NCBI GenBank assembly: GCA_016783505.1
Contig: JADHWK010000070.1
Location: 1-9,817, forward strand
Source of the DNA: Candidatus Zhuqueibacterota bacterium
Lineage (GTDB): Bacteria > BS750m-G25
DNA: 9,817 nucleotides
Direction of reading: 5' to 3'
Both the position numbers and the translations under genes were made by a program. Positions 3,404 to 9,233 of the stretch are shown here, one piece after another. Each line of letters starts with the position of its first letter. Position 1 is the stretch's first letter. The notes under the pieces were generated by a model, which had not been told where the DNA came from, searched no databases, and was given only the letters and a program-made list of their open reading frames with translations.

Positions 3404-4063
3404 ATGTTTACAAGAAGTGTTCTTGAAACTCTTATTATTGATGATAGAGTTGACAAGGATTCCCTCGCCGAAAGACTGGATCGAATACAAAAACACCTAT
3501 GTAGCAATAACGTGCAACGTGCGGCTGACCTTGCAACCGAATTGAGGGTGGCAAGTATTTTCTTGAATTTGAATGAACTAAAATGCATAGTATTTTGTGA
3601 GAAACCAGATTTACGATGTACGATACATGGCTATGATGTAAGCATTGAAATTCGGAAGTTTCGTTTTAAGAGTGAGGATGTAGAAAACCAAAAACGACTA
3701 GAACAAGCATTGGAACAGGGAGAACTGGTAGATTATGGCAATCTAGCTTACTTTGTGGAATTTGTGGAAGATGCACTTAAGCAAAAAATCCTAAAAGCCT
3801 TAGACAAATCGGATTACTATCTCTACCTGCTCTCTGAAAGTACACACCAAATTGAGGATGTGGAAATAAAAATTGCCCTAAAGGACATAATAAAAAGAGA
3901 TACTGGTTTACGCCGAGTCGCCGGTTTGTTTTACCAAACTTTAAATCGTCCGGTAGACACTTCTCCAATTCGATTTGTTGTTTTGAATGCTGAAAAAGCT
4001 TCAAATGCAGTTTTAGACGCCTTTGAGAGTTCAAGATTTTTTAACATTGTTAAAATTGATTAG
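3404..4063 (+). CDS. Hypothetical protein with PD-(D/E)XK-like residue pattern
   Basis: A 219-residue soluble protein, 40 nt downstream of the membrane-anchored protein. I do not recognise the family. Residues 40-89 show a pattern reminiscent of the PD-(D/E)XK nuclease fold. There is a helix with a conserved-looking glutamate (AADLATELRVASIFL, E46), then P68-D69 at the start of a strand, a glycine turn, and a strand ending in E82-I-R84-K85, where canonical enzymes have (D/E)-x-K. The x-K position holds Arg, with Lys one residue later, so activity is uncertain. The C-terminal half is helical and charged, without recognisable motifs. The start at ATG 3404 lacks a strong ribosome-binding site (only TTGAG about 8 nt upstream). 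The next in-frame ATG is not visible early, so the start is the least certain part. Composition is AT-rich, shared with the two genes before it. No methylase or helicase partner is present. Confidence 0.7.
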   Translation: MFTRSVLETLIIDDRVDKDSLAERLDRIQKHLCSNNVQRAADLATELRVASIFLNLNELKCIVFCEKPDLRCTIHGYDVSIEIRKFRFKSEDVENQKRLEQALEQGELVDYGNLAYFVEFVEDALKQKILKALDKSDYYLYLLSESTHQIEDVEIKIALKDIIKRDTGLRRVAGLFYQTLNRPVDTSPIRFVVLNAEKASNAVLDAFESSRFFNIVKID

Positions 4064-4362: not shown

Positions 4363-6738
4363 GTGGCCCTCTTCAGCGAAGCAAAAAAGATCAATGGGTT
4401 ATACCGGCAACGGGACTGGAACGGGATCGTTCGCATCGCCCGGGATCTGCCACTCAGAGAGATTGACGACATCAAGGTGCTGAACGACATTGCGGTGGCC
4501 TACCGCAGGCTGGACCGAATTGACGAGGCCTTTCAGGTGTGTCAACGTATCTATTCTTTGTATCCGGAACCCGACCTGATAAAGCAGAGCGTTGATCCCG
4601 GCATCCGCTACATGCGGCATCACCAAATCCTGGGCGAAATCTATTATTTAAAGGGAAATTACGATGAGGCTTTAAAGATCTTCGATAAGCTCAAGGTATT
4701 GGGGGATCGCTTTTCCGATAAATTCTTACTGACGGCCAAGATTTACCGGAAGCAGAAGCGATTTAACGAGGCGGCCCGGGAATATCGAAATATGATTACC
4801 CAGTGCCCTAAACGTATTGATTCTGTCATTAAGGGAACGCTGGAGCTAGCCACCGAGGACCCGACCAATGAGGAAACCTACCTGGCATTATATGAAGCTT
4901 ACTCCCATAAAGGATTGCTCAAACGGGTTGTTGCAGATTTAGAAACCCGACTGTCACGGGATGATGAAAACCTACCCGCCGCTTTTGTGGTGGGCTATTT
5001 CCTTTGCTTCAACGGCCAGCCCGAAAAGGGAATCCAAACCCTAATTCATTATCAGCAACAGCATCCCCAGAACCTGGACGCTGCCGTGAACCTGGCCCAG
5101 CTTTTCCTCCTTAACCGCCAGGGATCCCAGGCCTGGGAACTCTACATTGATACTATTAAGCCGGTGGGGGGAAAGGAAGAGACCGTTCTACGGTTGCTTG
5201 AGAAAATCACCGCTCAAAAGGTCGGTGGCGAGAGGGCAGAAGAAGATCTGGCCCATTTCTACATAGAATTGGGCCATTGGGATGGGGCCGAGGAAAAATA
5301 TTCAGCCCTGGCCCGGACTCGGCCGGACGATGAATCTATCAAATCCCAACTGGAGAAGATTTATCATTTCCAGATGGAACAAGCCATCGCCACTGATCGG
5401 TCTGAAGATGGCCTATCGGTCCTGCAAAAGCTTGTCAATCTGAGGCCTGAGAAGGAAGAATACCGCCAGAAGCTGCGTTCCTTGGAAACCCTTATTGTCC
5501 AATCCAAAATTGACGAGATTGAGCGGAAGTTAAAGATTTCCTCCCTGCCCGCCGATAAGGTCAATCGGCTTCAGTTCGAATTGGCCGAACTGTATGAGCA
5601 ACTAAAAGGGGGTGAAAAGCCAGCCCTGTCCTTTTTCCAGAAGGTGGCCCAATCAGATTCCGTCTATCGCCCCCAGGCCATATTGCGTGTAGGTCTTTCC
5701 TTTCTGAACCGGGGGATGGTGGATTTAGCCTTCAAGAACTTCAACGAGATCCTAACCCTCAATTTTGATGAGGAACAAAAAAAAGACTTTGTTTACCAGA
5801 TTGGCATCTTATGTGAGGAAAGGGGCCATCCCGAAAAGGCCAGAGAAATGTATTCATATATTATGGCCCTTGATGTCACCTTTCAGGATGTAGCCCAGCG
5901 GTTGGAGGGTTTGCCCCAAAAGGCCACCCCTTCCCTTGAAAAAGGAAAAGAAATAGATCTCAGTGACCGTTATGAGGAGATTGAAAAGATCGGGGAGGGG
6001 GGAATGGGCATTATCTATCGGGCCACCGATAAAATCTTAAAGCGTAAAGTGGCTATCAAGATGATTAAGGGGGACGTCCAGGCCCATCCCGAGGCGGTGG
6101 AACGGTTCATTCGGGAGGCGCAGTCAGCTAGCCAGCTTCGGCATCCGGGGATCGTTACCATCTACGACATCAACATAGGCCAGCCTATGTGGATTGTGAT
6201 GGAATTCGTGGAGGGCCAGGACTTAAGAAAATTAATGGAGATTCAAAAGTTTAACTGGACTACTTTAAAACCCCTGGCCGTCAAGACCTGTGAGGCCTTG
6301 GGACACGCTCATCAGCACGGGGTAGTACATCGTGATATTAAACCGGACAACATAATGGTTACCGCCGACGGTCAGGTCAAGATCACTGACTTCGGTCTGG
6401 CTCACATCGGAGCCGCTTCCGCCCTCACCCAGGCAGGTCAGGCCCTGGGTACCCCATGGTACATGGCCCCGGAGCAGATCCGGGGGCATGGGGTAGACCA
6501 CCGGGCCGACCTCTATGCCCTGGGGGCTACCTTCTATGAAATCCTGGTCGGCCGCCCTCCCTTTTATGAGGGGGACGTGGCTTACCAGCAGATCCATGAG
6601 CGGCCCCAACCCCCCAACCTCTTGAACCCCGAAATTCCCCAGACCGTCGAAGCCATAATCCTAAAGTGCCTGGAAAAATCCCCGGGAGACCGTTATCAGA
6701 CTTCCAATGATTTAATAGCAGATCTTATAAAGAGCTAA
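4363..6738 (+). CDS. TPR-repeat serine/threonine protein kinase (C-terminal Hanks-type kinase domain)
   Basis: 791 residues. The first 530 or so are helical tetratricopeptide-like repeats for protein binding; clearer units lie near residues 86-115, 121-150, 296-324, 439-468 and 477-506. Residues about 535-789 are a complete Hanks-type Ser/Thr kinase. It has the glycine loop GEGGMG (from G544), the VAIK lysine K566, the catalytic loop HRDIKPDN (D658), DFG (D676) and APE (E704). All catalytic positions are intact, so it should be active. There is no signal peptide, membrane span or PASTA domain, so it is a cytoplasmic kinase rather than a PknB-like surface receptor; the TPR region probably recruits substrates or regulators. 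The start is GTG 4363, behind AGGAAGG (4352-4358), which fits well. The cyclase gene begins 1 nt after its stop, so the two are co-translated and the cyclase is a candidate partner or substrate (inference). Confidence 0.93.
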   Translation: MALFSEAKKINGLYRQRDWNGIVRIARDLPLREIDDIKVLNDIAVAYRRLDRIDEAFQVCQRIYSLYPEPDLIKQSVDPGIRYMRHHQILGEIYYLKGNYDEALKIFDKLKVLGDRFSDKFLLTAKIYRKQKRFNEAAREYRNMITQCPKRIDSVIKGTLELATEDPTNEETYLALYEAYSHKGLLKRVVADLETRLSRDDENLPAAFVVGYFLCFNGQPEKGIQTLIHYQQQHPQNLDAAVNLAQLFLLNRQGSQAWELYIDTIKPVGGKEETVLRLLEKITAQKVGGERAEEDLAHFYIELGHWDGAEEKYSALARTRPDDESIKSQLEKIYHFQMEQAIATDRSEDGLSVLQKLVNLRPEKEEYRQKLRSLETLIVQSKIDEIERKLKISSLPADKVNRLQFELAELYEQLKGGEKPALSFFQKVAQSDSVYRPQAILRVGLSFLNRGMVDLAFKNFNEILTLNFDEEQKKDFVYQIGILCEERGHPEKAREMYSYIMALDVTFQDVAQRLEGLPQKATPSLEKGKEIDLSDRYEEIEKIGEGGMGIIYRATDKILKRKVAIKMIKGDVQAHPEAVERFIREAQSASQLRHPGIVTIYDINIGQPMWIVMEFVEGQDLRKLMEIQKFNWTTLKPLAVKTCEALGHAHQHGVVHRDIKPDNIMVTADGQVKITDFGLAHIGAASALTQAGQALGTPWYMAPEQIRGHGVDHRADLYALGATFYEILVGRPPFYEGDVAYQQIHERPQPPNLLNPEIPQTVEAIILKCLEKSPGDRYQTSNDLIADLIKS

Positions 6739-6739
6739 A

Positions 6740-8440
6740 ATGGCCGATCCCAAAATCATTGAAGAGAAATTAGGCCGGTTTGAGAAGGAAATCCAGGCCT
6801 TTAGCCATGAAATCCAGGGTTTAATTCAGGAACATCCGGATCTGCCAACCCAAAAGGTGCGGGAGCGCCTGATCGGGCTTCTGGATTCATACCAACCGCT
6901 GCGCCGGGAAACCCTCGATTTCGAGCTCTATCGTCAGGAAATGGCCACCCTGATCGAGGTCTCCAACCTTATCAACTCGGTGTTGGAGATGGACAAGCTG
7001 TTAAATCTGATCATGGACATGGCCATCAGGGTGATGGTAGCTGAACGGGGATTTTTAATGCTCAAGGACAAGGACACCGGGGAGTTGGCCGTGCGGGTGG
7101 CCCGGAATATGGAGGAGGAGATGAAGGATCAAAGCCAGTTCACCATCAGTTCCTCCATCTCCAGCCGGGTGGCCCGGGAAGGGGAGCCTATCCTTACTAC
7201 CGACGCCCAGGAAGACGCCCGATTTCAGGGCCAGGCCTCCATTATGGACTATAGCCTAAGATCGCTGATCTGCGTGCCCCTGAAGATTAAGTCCGATGTC
7301 ACCGGGGTCATTTACTTAGACAACCGCACGGTGGGGGGGGCTTTTTCTGATCGAAGCATTAAATTTCTCACCTCCTTTGCCAATCAGGCTGCCATTGCCA
7401 TTGAGAACGCCCGATTGGTGGAGAAAATCCAGCAAGAGACCCGCATGAGATCCAACCTTCAGCGCTACCTTTCCCCCAACCTGGTAGATGACATCATGAA
7501 CAAAAAAAAGGATTTGGCCCTGGGTGGGGAGAGGGTGGAGTGTAGCATCCTGTTTGCAGACATCTGCGGATTCACAGCCCTTTCTGAAAAGATGAGCTCA
7601 GAGGAGGTTGTCAGGATGCTCAACGAATATTTTACACGCATGGCCGATATTATTTTTAAACATGGGGGAACCCTTGATAAATTCATGGGGGATGGTATCC
7701 TGGTATTATTCGGCACCCCTGTGTTTTCAGATCAGAGTGCATTAGAGGCGGTGGACTGCGCCTTCGGCATGCAGCAAGAATCGGAAAAACTGGCCCGGGA
7801 GTGGGCTCAGAAAGGCTGGCCCACCTTTAAAATGCGCATTGGCATCAACACCGGCGCGGTGGTGGCCGGTAACATCGGTTCCCCACAGCGGATGGACTAC
7901 ACTGTCATAGGCGACGGCGTCAATTTAGCCTCCCGGGTTGAGGCCAAAGCTCCACCCGGCGGGGTGCTCATCACCCGGCCAACCCTGGAAAGGGTAAAGA
8001 ATGCCATTCGCTATCAGACTCTGGATCCTGTCCGGCTGAAGGGCAAGACCGAACCGGTGGAAATTTTTCTGGTGACAGATCTCCTGGTGGAAACAGTAAA
8101 GGAATTTCGGGAGTTACGCCGGGAGAAGAGAAAAGAGGCCTCACTTTTCGCCACCTATCGCCACGAAAAGGAAACCAAGGTCAACCAAGGCATTATTCAG
8201 AATATAAGCCCCGGGGGAGTGTTCTTGAGCACCAAGGTGGGTCTTCCGGAGGGGTCCCGACTGGAGCTTAGTTTTAACCTCACCGATGAAATGAAATGCG
8301 ATGGCATCTGGGGAACCATCTGTCAAGCTCAACAATCTCAGGATGATCAAGGACGACCATTTTACAAATTGGGAATAAAATTTGAGCCCCTTTCCCCATC
8401 TGATAACGAAAAGGTCCTCAGCTTTGTATCCCAGACCTGA
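6740..8440 (+). CDS. GAF-adenylate cyclase (class III)-PilZ signalling protein
   Basis: 566 residues, soluble. It makes cAMP from ATP, judged by residues. Domains in order: an N-terminal helical/coiled region (1-70); a GAF sensor (about 75-225); a linker with the QRYLSP segment typical before class III cyclase domains; a cyclase homology domain (about 264-440); and a C-terminal PilZ domain (about 455-566). The cyclase has both metal-binding aspartates (D274 in LFADICGFT, D318 in KFMGDG). The adenine-selecting pair is K314 and D386 (DYTVIGDGVNLASR), and the transition-state residues are N395 and R399. This is the full adenylate cyclase set rather than a guanylate cyclase set. The PilZ part carries RxxxR (R460-R464) and NxSxxG (N488, S490, G493), the c-di-GMP-binding signature. 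Its ATG lies 1 nt after the kinase stop with only a weak AAAGAG upstream, implying translational coupling. The GAF ligand is unknown. Confidence 0.93.
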   Translation: MADPKIIEEKLGRFEKEIQAFSHEIQGLIQEHPDLPTQKVRERLIGLLDSYQPLRRETLDFELYRQEMATLIEVSNLINSVLEMDKLLNLIMDMAIRVMVAERGFLMLKDKDTGELAVRVARNMEEEMKDQSQFTISSSISSRVAREGEPILTTDAQEDARFQGQASIMDYSLRSLICVPLKIKSDVTGVIYLDNRTVGGAFSDRSIKFLTSFANQAAIAIENARLVEKIQQETRMRSNLQRYLSPNLVDDIMNKKKDLALGGERVECSILFADICGFTALSEKMSSEEVVRMLNEYFTRMADIIFKHGGTLDKFMGDGILVLFGTPVFSDQSALEAVDCAFGMQQESEKLAREWAQKGWPTFKMRIGINTGAVVAGNIGSPQRMDYTVIGDGVNLASRVEAKAPPGGVLITRPTLERVKNAIRYQTLDPVRLKGKTEPVEIFLVTDLLVETVKEFRELRREKRKEASLFATYRHEKETKVNQGIIQNISPGGVFLSTKVGLPEGSRLELSFNLTDEMKCDGIWGTICQAQQSQDDQGRPFYKLGIKFEPLSPSDNEKVLSFVSQT

Positions 8441-9233
8441 TTTCAATCGCCGATGTAAAAAAGCCGCCTTGTTGGTTTTAATATTGGCTACTCTTTCAGT
8501 GGGTCTCAAGGGGGTTAGAGCCGGATCCCCATTGAGCACCCCCCAGGACATCTGGCGGGTAGGGGAGGAGCTAATCTATTCGGTGCGGTGGCTTTTCATT
8601 CATCTGGGCACGATTAACGTAAAGGTTGCCCAAAAAATTGAGAATAACGGCCGTTCAGCATATTTGGTTAAGGTCAAGGCTTACTCCAACCCCCTCCTGT
8701 TTTTTTTAGATGTTGATTTAAATATGGAAACCCTGGTGGATGAGGATTTATATTCCCTCCATTATACGGTTAAGGACAAGGTTGACGAGCTATTCGATTC
8801 TACCGAATATGTATTTGATTACAAAAATGAGCAAATGATAATAAAACGGTTTAGCGGGGAAAACCTTGTCAAGACCAAGGATGATACGATACCTTTACTA
8901 CATCCCATGCAGGATTCGGGATCCCTCATCTTTTATGCACGGGGCCAATCCCTTTCACAAGGGATTATTGAAGTACCCACCATTGTCAGCGAGGAGGAGG
9001 TATCCTGCAAAATGGTTTTTACTGGAAAGAAAAGTAAGGTGAAGATAAAGGGCTTAAAACCAGAAATCCAGGAGGTTGTAGAAATTAAAGGATTTTTGCC
9101 AACTAAAGGGGTGGTGGGCTTGAGTGGTGATTATCGGGGGTGGTTCACTGCTGATGAACGGGCCATTCCCTTAAAGGCCCATCTCAACATCTTCCTTGGG
9201 AAGATCGTCATCAACCTGAAGAGTATAAAATAA
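8424..9233 (+). CDS. DUF3108 family exported protein
   Basis: About 269 residues with an N-terminal signal peptide: basic RRCKK, a hydrophobic core AALLVLILATLSVGL, and probable cleavage after VRA (about residue 33). The mature part starts with the DUF3108-type opening 'WRVGEELIYSVRWLFIHLGTINVKV', then predominantly beta strands to the end, as in this periplasmic/outer-surface family of unknown function. The frame extends upstream to TTG 8382, inside the cyclase gene. I prefer TTG 8424 because AAAAGG (8409-8414) sits 9 nt before it and it gives a normal-length signal peptide; no in-frame ATG precedes the hydrophobic core. Either way the start overlaps the end of the cyclase gene (17 nt with the chosen start), so it belongs to the same operon. 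Whether its role is tied to cAMP or kinase signalling cannot be told from sequence. The family call rests on pattern recognition. Confidence 0.8.
   Translation: MYPRPDFNRRCKKAALLVLILATLSVGLKGVRAGSPLSTPQDIWRVGEELIYSVRWLFIHLGTINVKVAQKIENNGRSAYLVKVKAYSNPLLFFLDVDLNMETLVDEDLYSLHYTVKDKVDELFDSTEYVFDYKNEQMIIKRFSGENLVKTKDDTIPLLHPMQDSGSLIFYARGQSLSQGIIEVPTIVSEEEVSCKMVFTGKKSKVKIKGLKPEIQEVVEIKGFLPTKGVVGLSGDYRGWFTADERAIPLKAHLNIFLGKIVINLKSIK

Follow-up and report, generated by a model that had tools for sequence, protein, structure and literature searches.

A GAF-adenylate cyclase-PilZ protein with a neighboring kinase gene as a candidate route from c-di-GMP to cAMP

The second messengers cAMP and c-di-GMP are often opposed in bacteria. 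To our knowledge, the known links between them run mostly via transcription, and the few direct ones lead from cAMP to c-di-GMP turnover. A protein of 566 amino acids (6740..8440, + strand) raises the question of whether the opposite direction may exist as well, i.e., whether an adenylate cyclase could carry a receptor domain for c-di-GMP in its own chain. Its gene, delimited by the open reading frame with its ATG start codon, by Pfam matches, and by homologues, lies in a window of 9,817 nucleotides (the whole stretch of DNA that was analyzed), which makes up an entire contig (G000:C8) of a metagenome-assembled genome of 2.5 Mb and roughly 60% completeness.

Domain layout and cyclase class

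A reading of this locus made from the sequence only had placed a GAF domain, an adenylate cyclase, and a PilZ domain in one chain, and all three indeed score above their Pfam cut-offs. The GAF domain (residues 83-222; 6986..7405, +) is matched by GAF_2, GAF_3, and GAF, with an E-value of 8.6e-18 for GAF_2 over the same residues. It is followed by a long helix leading to the cyclase (residues 204-241; 7349..7462, +), a probable signaling helix judging from the AlphaFold2 model, in which confidence is low from residue 233 on, and from the homologue alignment, in which this linker is well conserved. The class III catalytic domain (residues 267-444; 7538..8071, +), recognized by Pfam, PDB alignment, and invariant residues, matches Guanylate_cyc (PF00211) with an E-value of 1.3e-31 and 110 bits against a curated cut-off of 21.9. 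The PilZ domain (residues 459-564; 8114..8431, +) matches PF07238 with an E-value of 2.3e-9 and 37.9 bits against a cut-off of 22.5, and with 41.4 bits in the genome search. Owing to its low pTM of 0.38, from which no reliable domain arrangement can be taken, the full-length model was left out on this point. Two more specialized families were approached but not reached: the PilZ domain is related to the gmx PilZ-like paralog domain TIGR02266 without being a member (36.8 bits against a curated cut-off of 68.7), and the TOMM kinase/cyclase fusion TIGR03903 (cut-off 705.75) gave 44.5 bits for the cyclase and 130.6 bits for the kinase encoded next to it, which are two separate proteins. In the GAF domain, the region that we take to be the place of the cyclic-nucleotide NKFDE motif reads DNRTVGGAFSDRS, by eye an incomplete match, and we do not claim a cAMP-binding GAF domain.

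The catalytic and ligand residues named in the sequence-only reading (D274, K314, D318, D386, N395, and R399 in the cyclase; R460, R464, N488, S490, and G493 in PilZ) all stand at the positions given. One role had to be reassigned, however, as the substrate-specifying site is not D386 but T388, which precedes the transition-state Asn (N395) by seven positions and aligns with RMDYTIIG of Pseudomonas aeruginosa CyaB (3r5g) and RSDFTAIG of CyaC (1wc1). D274, K314, D318, T388, N395, and R399 are invariant in 13 of 13 aligned homologues. The domain thus holds the two metal-binding Asp residues, the transition-state Asn/Arg pair, and the substrate Lys with Asp or Thr that define class III, and where the substrate-specifying Asp would stand it has Thr, the mark of class IIIb (T388, invariant in 13). 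Since this Lys/Thr pattern is that of class IIIb adenylate cyclases, the enzyme is by its residues a K/T-type (class IIIb-like) adenylate cyclase, and its expected product should be cAMP. Among PDB entries, the catalytic domain is matched best by a GAF-controlled cyclase of the Anabaena CyaB1/CyaB2 type (2w01/6fht), in which GAF likewise precedes a class III cyclase and is connected to it through a helix. Unlike the Anabaena type, the protein studied here has one GAF domain, a C-terminal PilZ domain, and a linked gene for a TPR-kinase; we know of no PilZ domain in CyaB1/CyaB2-type cyclases.

The PilZ fold and its ligand site

Both computable checks that had been proposed for the PilZ assignment were run, and neither refuted it: the profile matches above its cut-off, and the predicted structure contains the barrel. 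Modeled alone from a 12-sequence alignment, the domain reaches a pLDDT of 91.9 and forms the expected six-stranded barrel with a C-terminal helix. A phmmer search of PilZ alone against PDB sequences returned spurious repeat-protein matches only, so a structure-based search was needed. With Foldseek and VIA-align, the first-ranked folds are c-di-GMP-type PilZ proteins, including Alg44, MapZ, YcgR, and BcsA; VIA-align gives MotI as the best match (Z 15.1, rmsd 2.1 over 104 residues) and a Z of 14.8 for the PP4397-c-di-GMP complex, and one of 13.2 for BcsA (9b8v).

A PilZ domain with intact binding motifs does not have to act on the enzyme fused to it and can work through a partner protein instead. 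As a ligand-dependent docking module, PilZ might bind c-di-GMP with catalysis unaltered and bring the cyclase, perhaps together with the kinase, to a partner where cAMP would be made locally. We consider this unlikely but worth weighing, since the closest folds (MotI, YcgR, and MapZ) are all docking proteins and since PilZ is the fastest-diverging domain of the chain, as would be expected of a partner-facing module. Its identity to the window protein across homologues is 20-40% compared to 46-57% for the cyclase, which makes it the least conserved domain as well.

Against this background of drift, the ligand site stands out. The RxxxR motif (RREKR, residues 460-464; 8117..8131, +) and the [D/N]xSxxG motif (NISPGG, residues 488-493; 8201..8218, +), both already pointed out by the sequence-only reading and read directly here, are conserved in 13 of 13 aligned sequences and in two more homologues (L213 and L214, by reading), and thus in all 15 GAF-cyclase-PilZ proteins. 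R460, R464, S490, and G493 are invariant in the 13 sequences and make up four of the eight invariant PilZ columns; position 488 is Asn or Asp only. Randomly drawn sets of five positions seldom reach the conservation of the five motif positions (permutation p 3e-5). Such retention of a motif in a fast-changing domain is to be expected if a c-di-GMP site is being maintained.

This constraint also bears on whether PilZ may have lost its ligand and become a structural or protein-interaction domain, which would leave the cyclase under GAF and kinase control alone. Degenerate PilZ-like tails do occur in related fusions: one REC-REC-REC-cyclase protein (L198; G066:C311) ends in a tail that narrowly misses the Pfam cut-off and lacks RxxxR, and the cyclase fusion L060 has a degenerate tail with the motif lost, which means that a cyclase-linked PilZ does not necessarily bind ligand. 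In addition, the Asn at position 488, found in 9 of the 13 sequences, is a tolerated variant. However, the invariance of R460, R464, S490, and G493 and the conserved [D/N]488 in a drifting domain disfavor this explanation, as do a separate fusion with the same motif and the occurrence of GGDEF proteins in all member genomes that were checked (see below), and we regard it as quite improbable. Binding of c-di-GMP by PilZ is a well-supported prediction. Its stoichiometry can be predicted weakly, as Leu precedes RxxxR in the window protein: in VCA0042, whose L135R entry 3kyg is among the structural matches to our model (Foldseek, VIA-align), Leu at this place reportedly favors a single c-di-GMP molecule, and Arg favors a dimer, by which analogy PilZ may bind a single ligand.

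Distribution, kinase partner, and genome context

The full GAF-cyclase-PilZ chain was found in 15 proteins from 14 genomes of Nitrospinota, Tectomicrobia, records labeled Planctomycetota, and the phylum of the window itself. In profile searches, it was present in 3/77 genomes of one Nitrospinota-type phylum, 7/18 of a Tectomicrobia-type phylum, 3/392 sampled genomes of the phylum of a record titled Planctomycetota, and 2/386 genomes of broad spread; within the window's own phylum, the search found the window genome alone, which is the sole member in the search set. The domain order, previously called unusual, is therefore rare (its own genome and one other among the 386), but it recurs in several phyla. 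Homologues that run through PilZ are 37-53% identical in the genome-wide search, and most others end at residue ~445, i.e., at the cyclase end. The 15 proteins form one clade (support 100/98), and most of them carry an N-terminal zinc ribbon, which is absent from the window protein and L136. In a UBA8248 relative (L046 5638-7677 / L207), an in-frame TAG inside PilZ just after RxxxR is either a sequencing error or the mark of a pseudogene or a dispensable PilZ.

The nearest GAF-cyclase relatives, at 35-46% identity, are FHA-GAF-adenylate cyclases (L047-L068) of Acidobacteriota, Coatesbacteria, Desulfobacteraceae, and others, some of which likewise have a Ser/Thr kinase gene nearby. Most have an N-terminal FHA domain, and almost none extends beyond the cyclase, whereas the window clade lacks FHA and has gained PilZ. 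The 133-aa tail of one acidobacterial protein (L050) was considered as a degenerate PilZ and dismissed, as Pfam detects no PilZ there. An FHA-GAF-cyclase-PilZ protein with intact RREHER and DVSRGG motifs (L215; G518:C347), from a genome of the Planctomycetota-titled phylum, falls outside the 15-member clade, and a tree with all fusions in one clade, i.e., with one origin, is rejected with a p-AU of 1.9e-5 for a group that was named after the sequences had been seen. GAF-cyclases join many partner domains (FHA, zinc ribbon, and REC), and the fusion might be a by-product of such shuffling of signaling modules, with no selected coupling of the two messengers. We find this very improbable because the order is kept in 15 proteins of one clade across several phyla and because the ligand residues are under strong constraint.

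A conserved partner gene that the sequence-only reading had passed over lies directly upstream. It encodes a TPR-repeat Ser/Thr protein kinase (4363..6738, +), identified by Pfam (Pkinase E-value 1.3e-54), its catalytic motifs, and its adjacency, and 1 nt lies between its stop codon and the cyclase ATG. Such a kinase gene directly precedes the cyclase in 11 contexts (the window, L136, L200-L207, and L213), an adjacency that would also suit a docking role of PilZ. The kinases of the ten further contexts are related to that of the window, with 38-47% identity over nearly their full length in the unbroken copies measured. In one exception (L042), the kinase is encoded elsewhere in the genome, and the cyclase copies of L041, L043, and L214 are at contig edges and fall outside the 11 contexts. 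Kinase and cyclase distances correlate with r 0.99 over 11 pairs, uncorrected for species phylogeny, a value that shared ancestry alone could produce.

GGDEF domains are present in 12 of 12 member genomes checked. The single detected GGDEF protein of the window genome is a REC-GAF-GGEEF protein with an RxxD inhibitory site (RSID), and the same genome encodes six cNMP-binding proteins, at least two of which have intact FGE...RSA phosphate-binding motifs. Together with PilZ and the cyclase, a maker and a reader of c-di-GMP as well as a maker and likely readers of cAMP are thus encoded. An intact adenylate cyclase joined to a canonical c-di-GMP-type PilZ is well supported by profile, predicted fold, and motif conservation, with further support from the second, separate fusion and from the c-di-GMP synthases of all member genomes checked.

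A second cyclase of the window genome (L140 3383-5686, -) has a CHASE2-cyclase-TPR layout without PilZ. Elsewhere in the window are the 3' part of a leucyl-tRNA synthetase gene with editing and anticodon domains, cut by the contig start (3-1769, +), a 238-aa Cys-rich protein (2163-2879, +) whose N-terminal part carries a CxxC pair and whose C-terminal stretch reads CSNCRKSENKIF...PCKECT...CRCRY, and a 219-aa protein encoded between small ORFs and the kinase gene (3404-4063, +); the latter two have no Pfam match. Downstream of the cyclase follows a DUF3108 protein (8382-9233, +), whose gene was not found at this place in the homologous loci searched. Rfam gave no match in the window and hence no known riboswitch family.

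A proposed route from c-di-GMP to cAMP

The fusion, the binding residues, and the neighboring kinase gene are kept across phyla, which suggests that c-di-GMP probably controls cAMP production. We hold with moderate confidence that c-di-GMP binding to PilZ affects how much cAMP is made, and that the kinase and GAF feed in as well. The enzyme would be a soluble class III adenylate cyclase of the K314/T388 type that works as a dimer and converts ATP to cAMP, and its C-terminal PilZ domain would bind c-di-GMP via R460, R464, N488, S490, and G493. The linker that carries RxxxR (residues 446-464) begins right at the cyclase end, and bound c-di-GMP would pull it against the PilZ barrel; this closure may alter how PilZ packs on the cyclase dimer and turn cAMP synthesis up or down, in parallel to the c-di-GMP release of autoinhibited BcsA via PilZ. 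GAF would act from the other side via the helical linker, and the kinase encoded upstream may add its input by phosphorylation. With only ~15 residues between the cyclase end and RxxxR, PilZ is near enough for direct coupling, which argues against docking, as does the proven allostery in enzyme-PilZ fusions (BcsA; review in PMC7288161).

More tentatively, and at slightly less than even chances, the TPR-Ser/Thr kinase and the GAF-adenylate cyclase-PilZ protein may form a conserved two-gene c-di-GMP-to-cAMP relay, and a canonical PilZ would have been acquired by this cyclase lineage on two or more occasions. The cyclase would then integrate c-di-GMP, the state of the kinase, and a signal sensed by GAF, with cAMP as its output.

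Known systems share parts of this design. BcsA likewise has a canonical C-terminal PilZ on a catalytic unit but is a glycosyltransferase, whereas the window enzyme is predicted to make a second messenger. A single protein that would couple cAMP and c-di-GMP directly has counterparts in Bd1971, described in PMC6717892 as a cNMP-binding-EAL protein in which cAMP acts on c-di-GMP turnover, and in Lcd1, a cAMP-dependent diguanylate cyclase of Leptospira as cited in PMC12943098. In both, cAMP acts on c-di-GMP turnover, whereas in the window protein c-di-GMP would act on cAMP synthesis. Adenylate cyclase is not among the PilZ-fused enzymes in the passages of PMC7288161 and PMC10333796 available to us, although the 221 Pfam architectures given in the former imply that the GAF-cyclase-PilZ order may already sit unremarked in databases. 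We found no description of a cyclase-PilZ fusion in the literature searched, which includes few subscription papers and does not prove absence. The protein thus appears to combine ordinary parts in an order that is undescribed so far, conserved, and possibly informative. If our reading is true, a cyclase that contains its own c-di-GMP receptor would link c-di-GMP to cAMP in one step, and through the pairing with a Ser/Thr kinase, three signaling currencies would meet on a single enzyme, in phyla that have been little studied.
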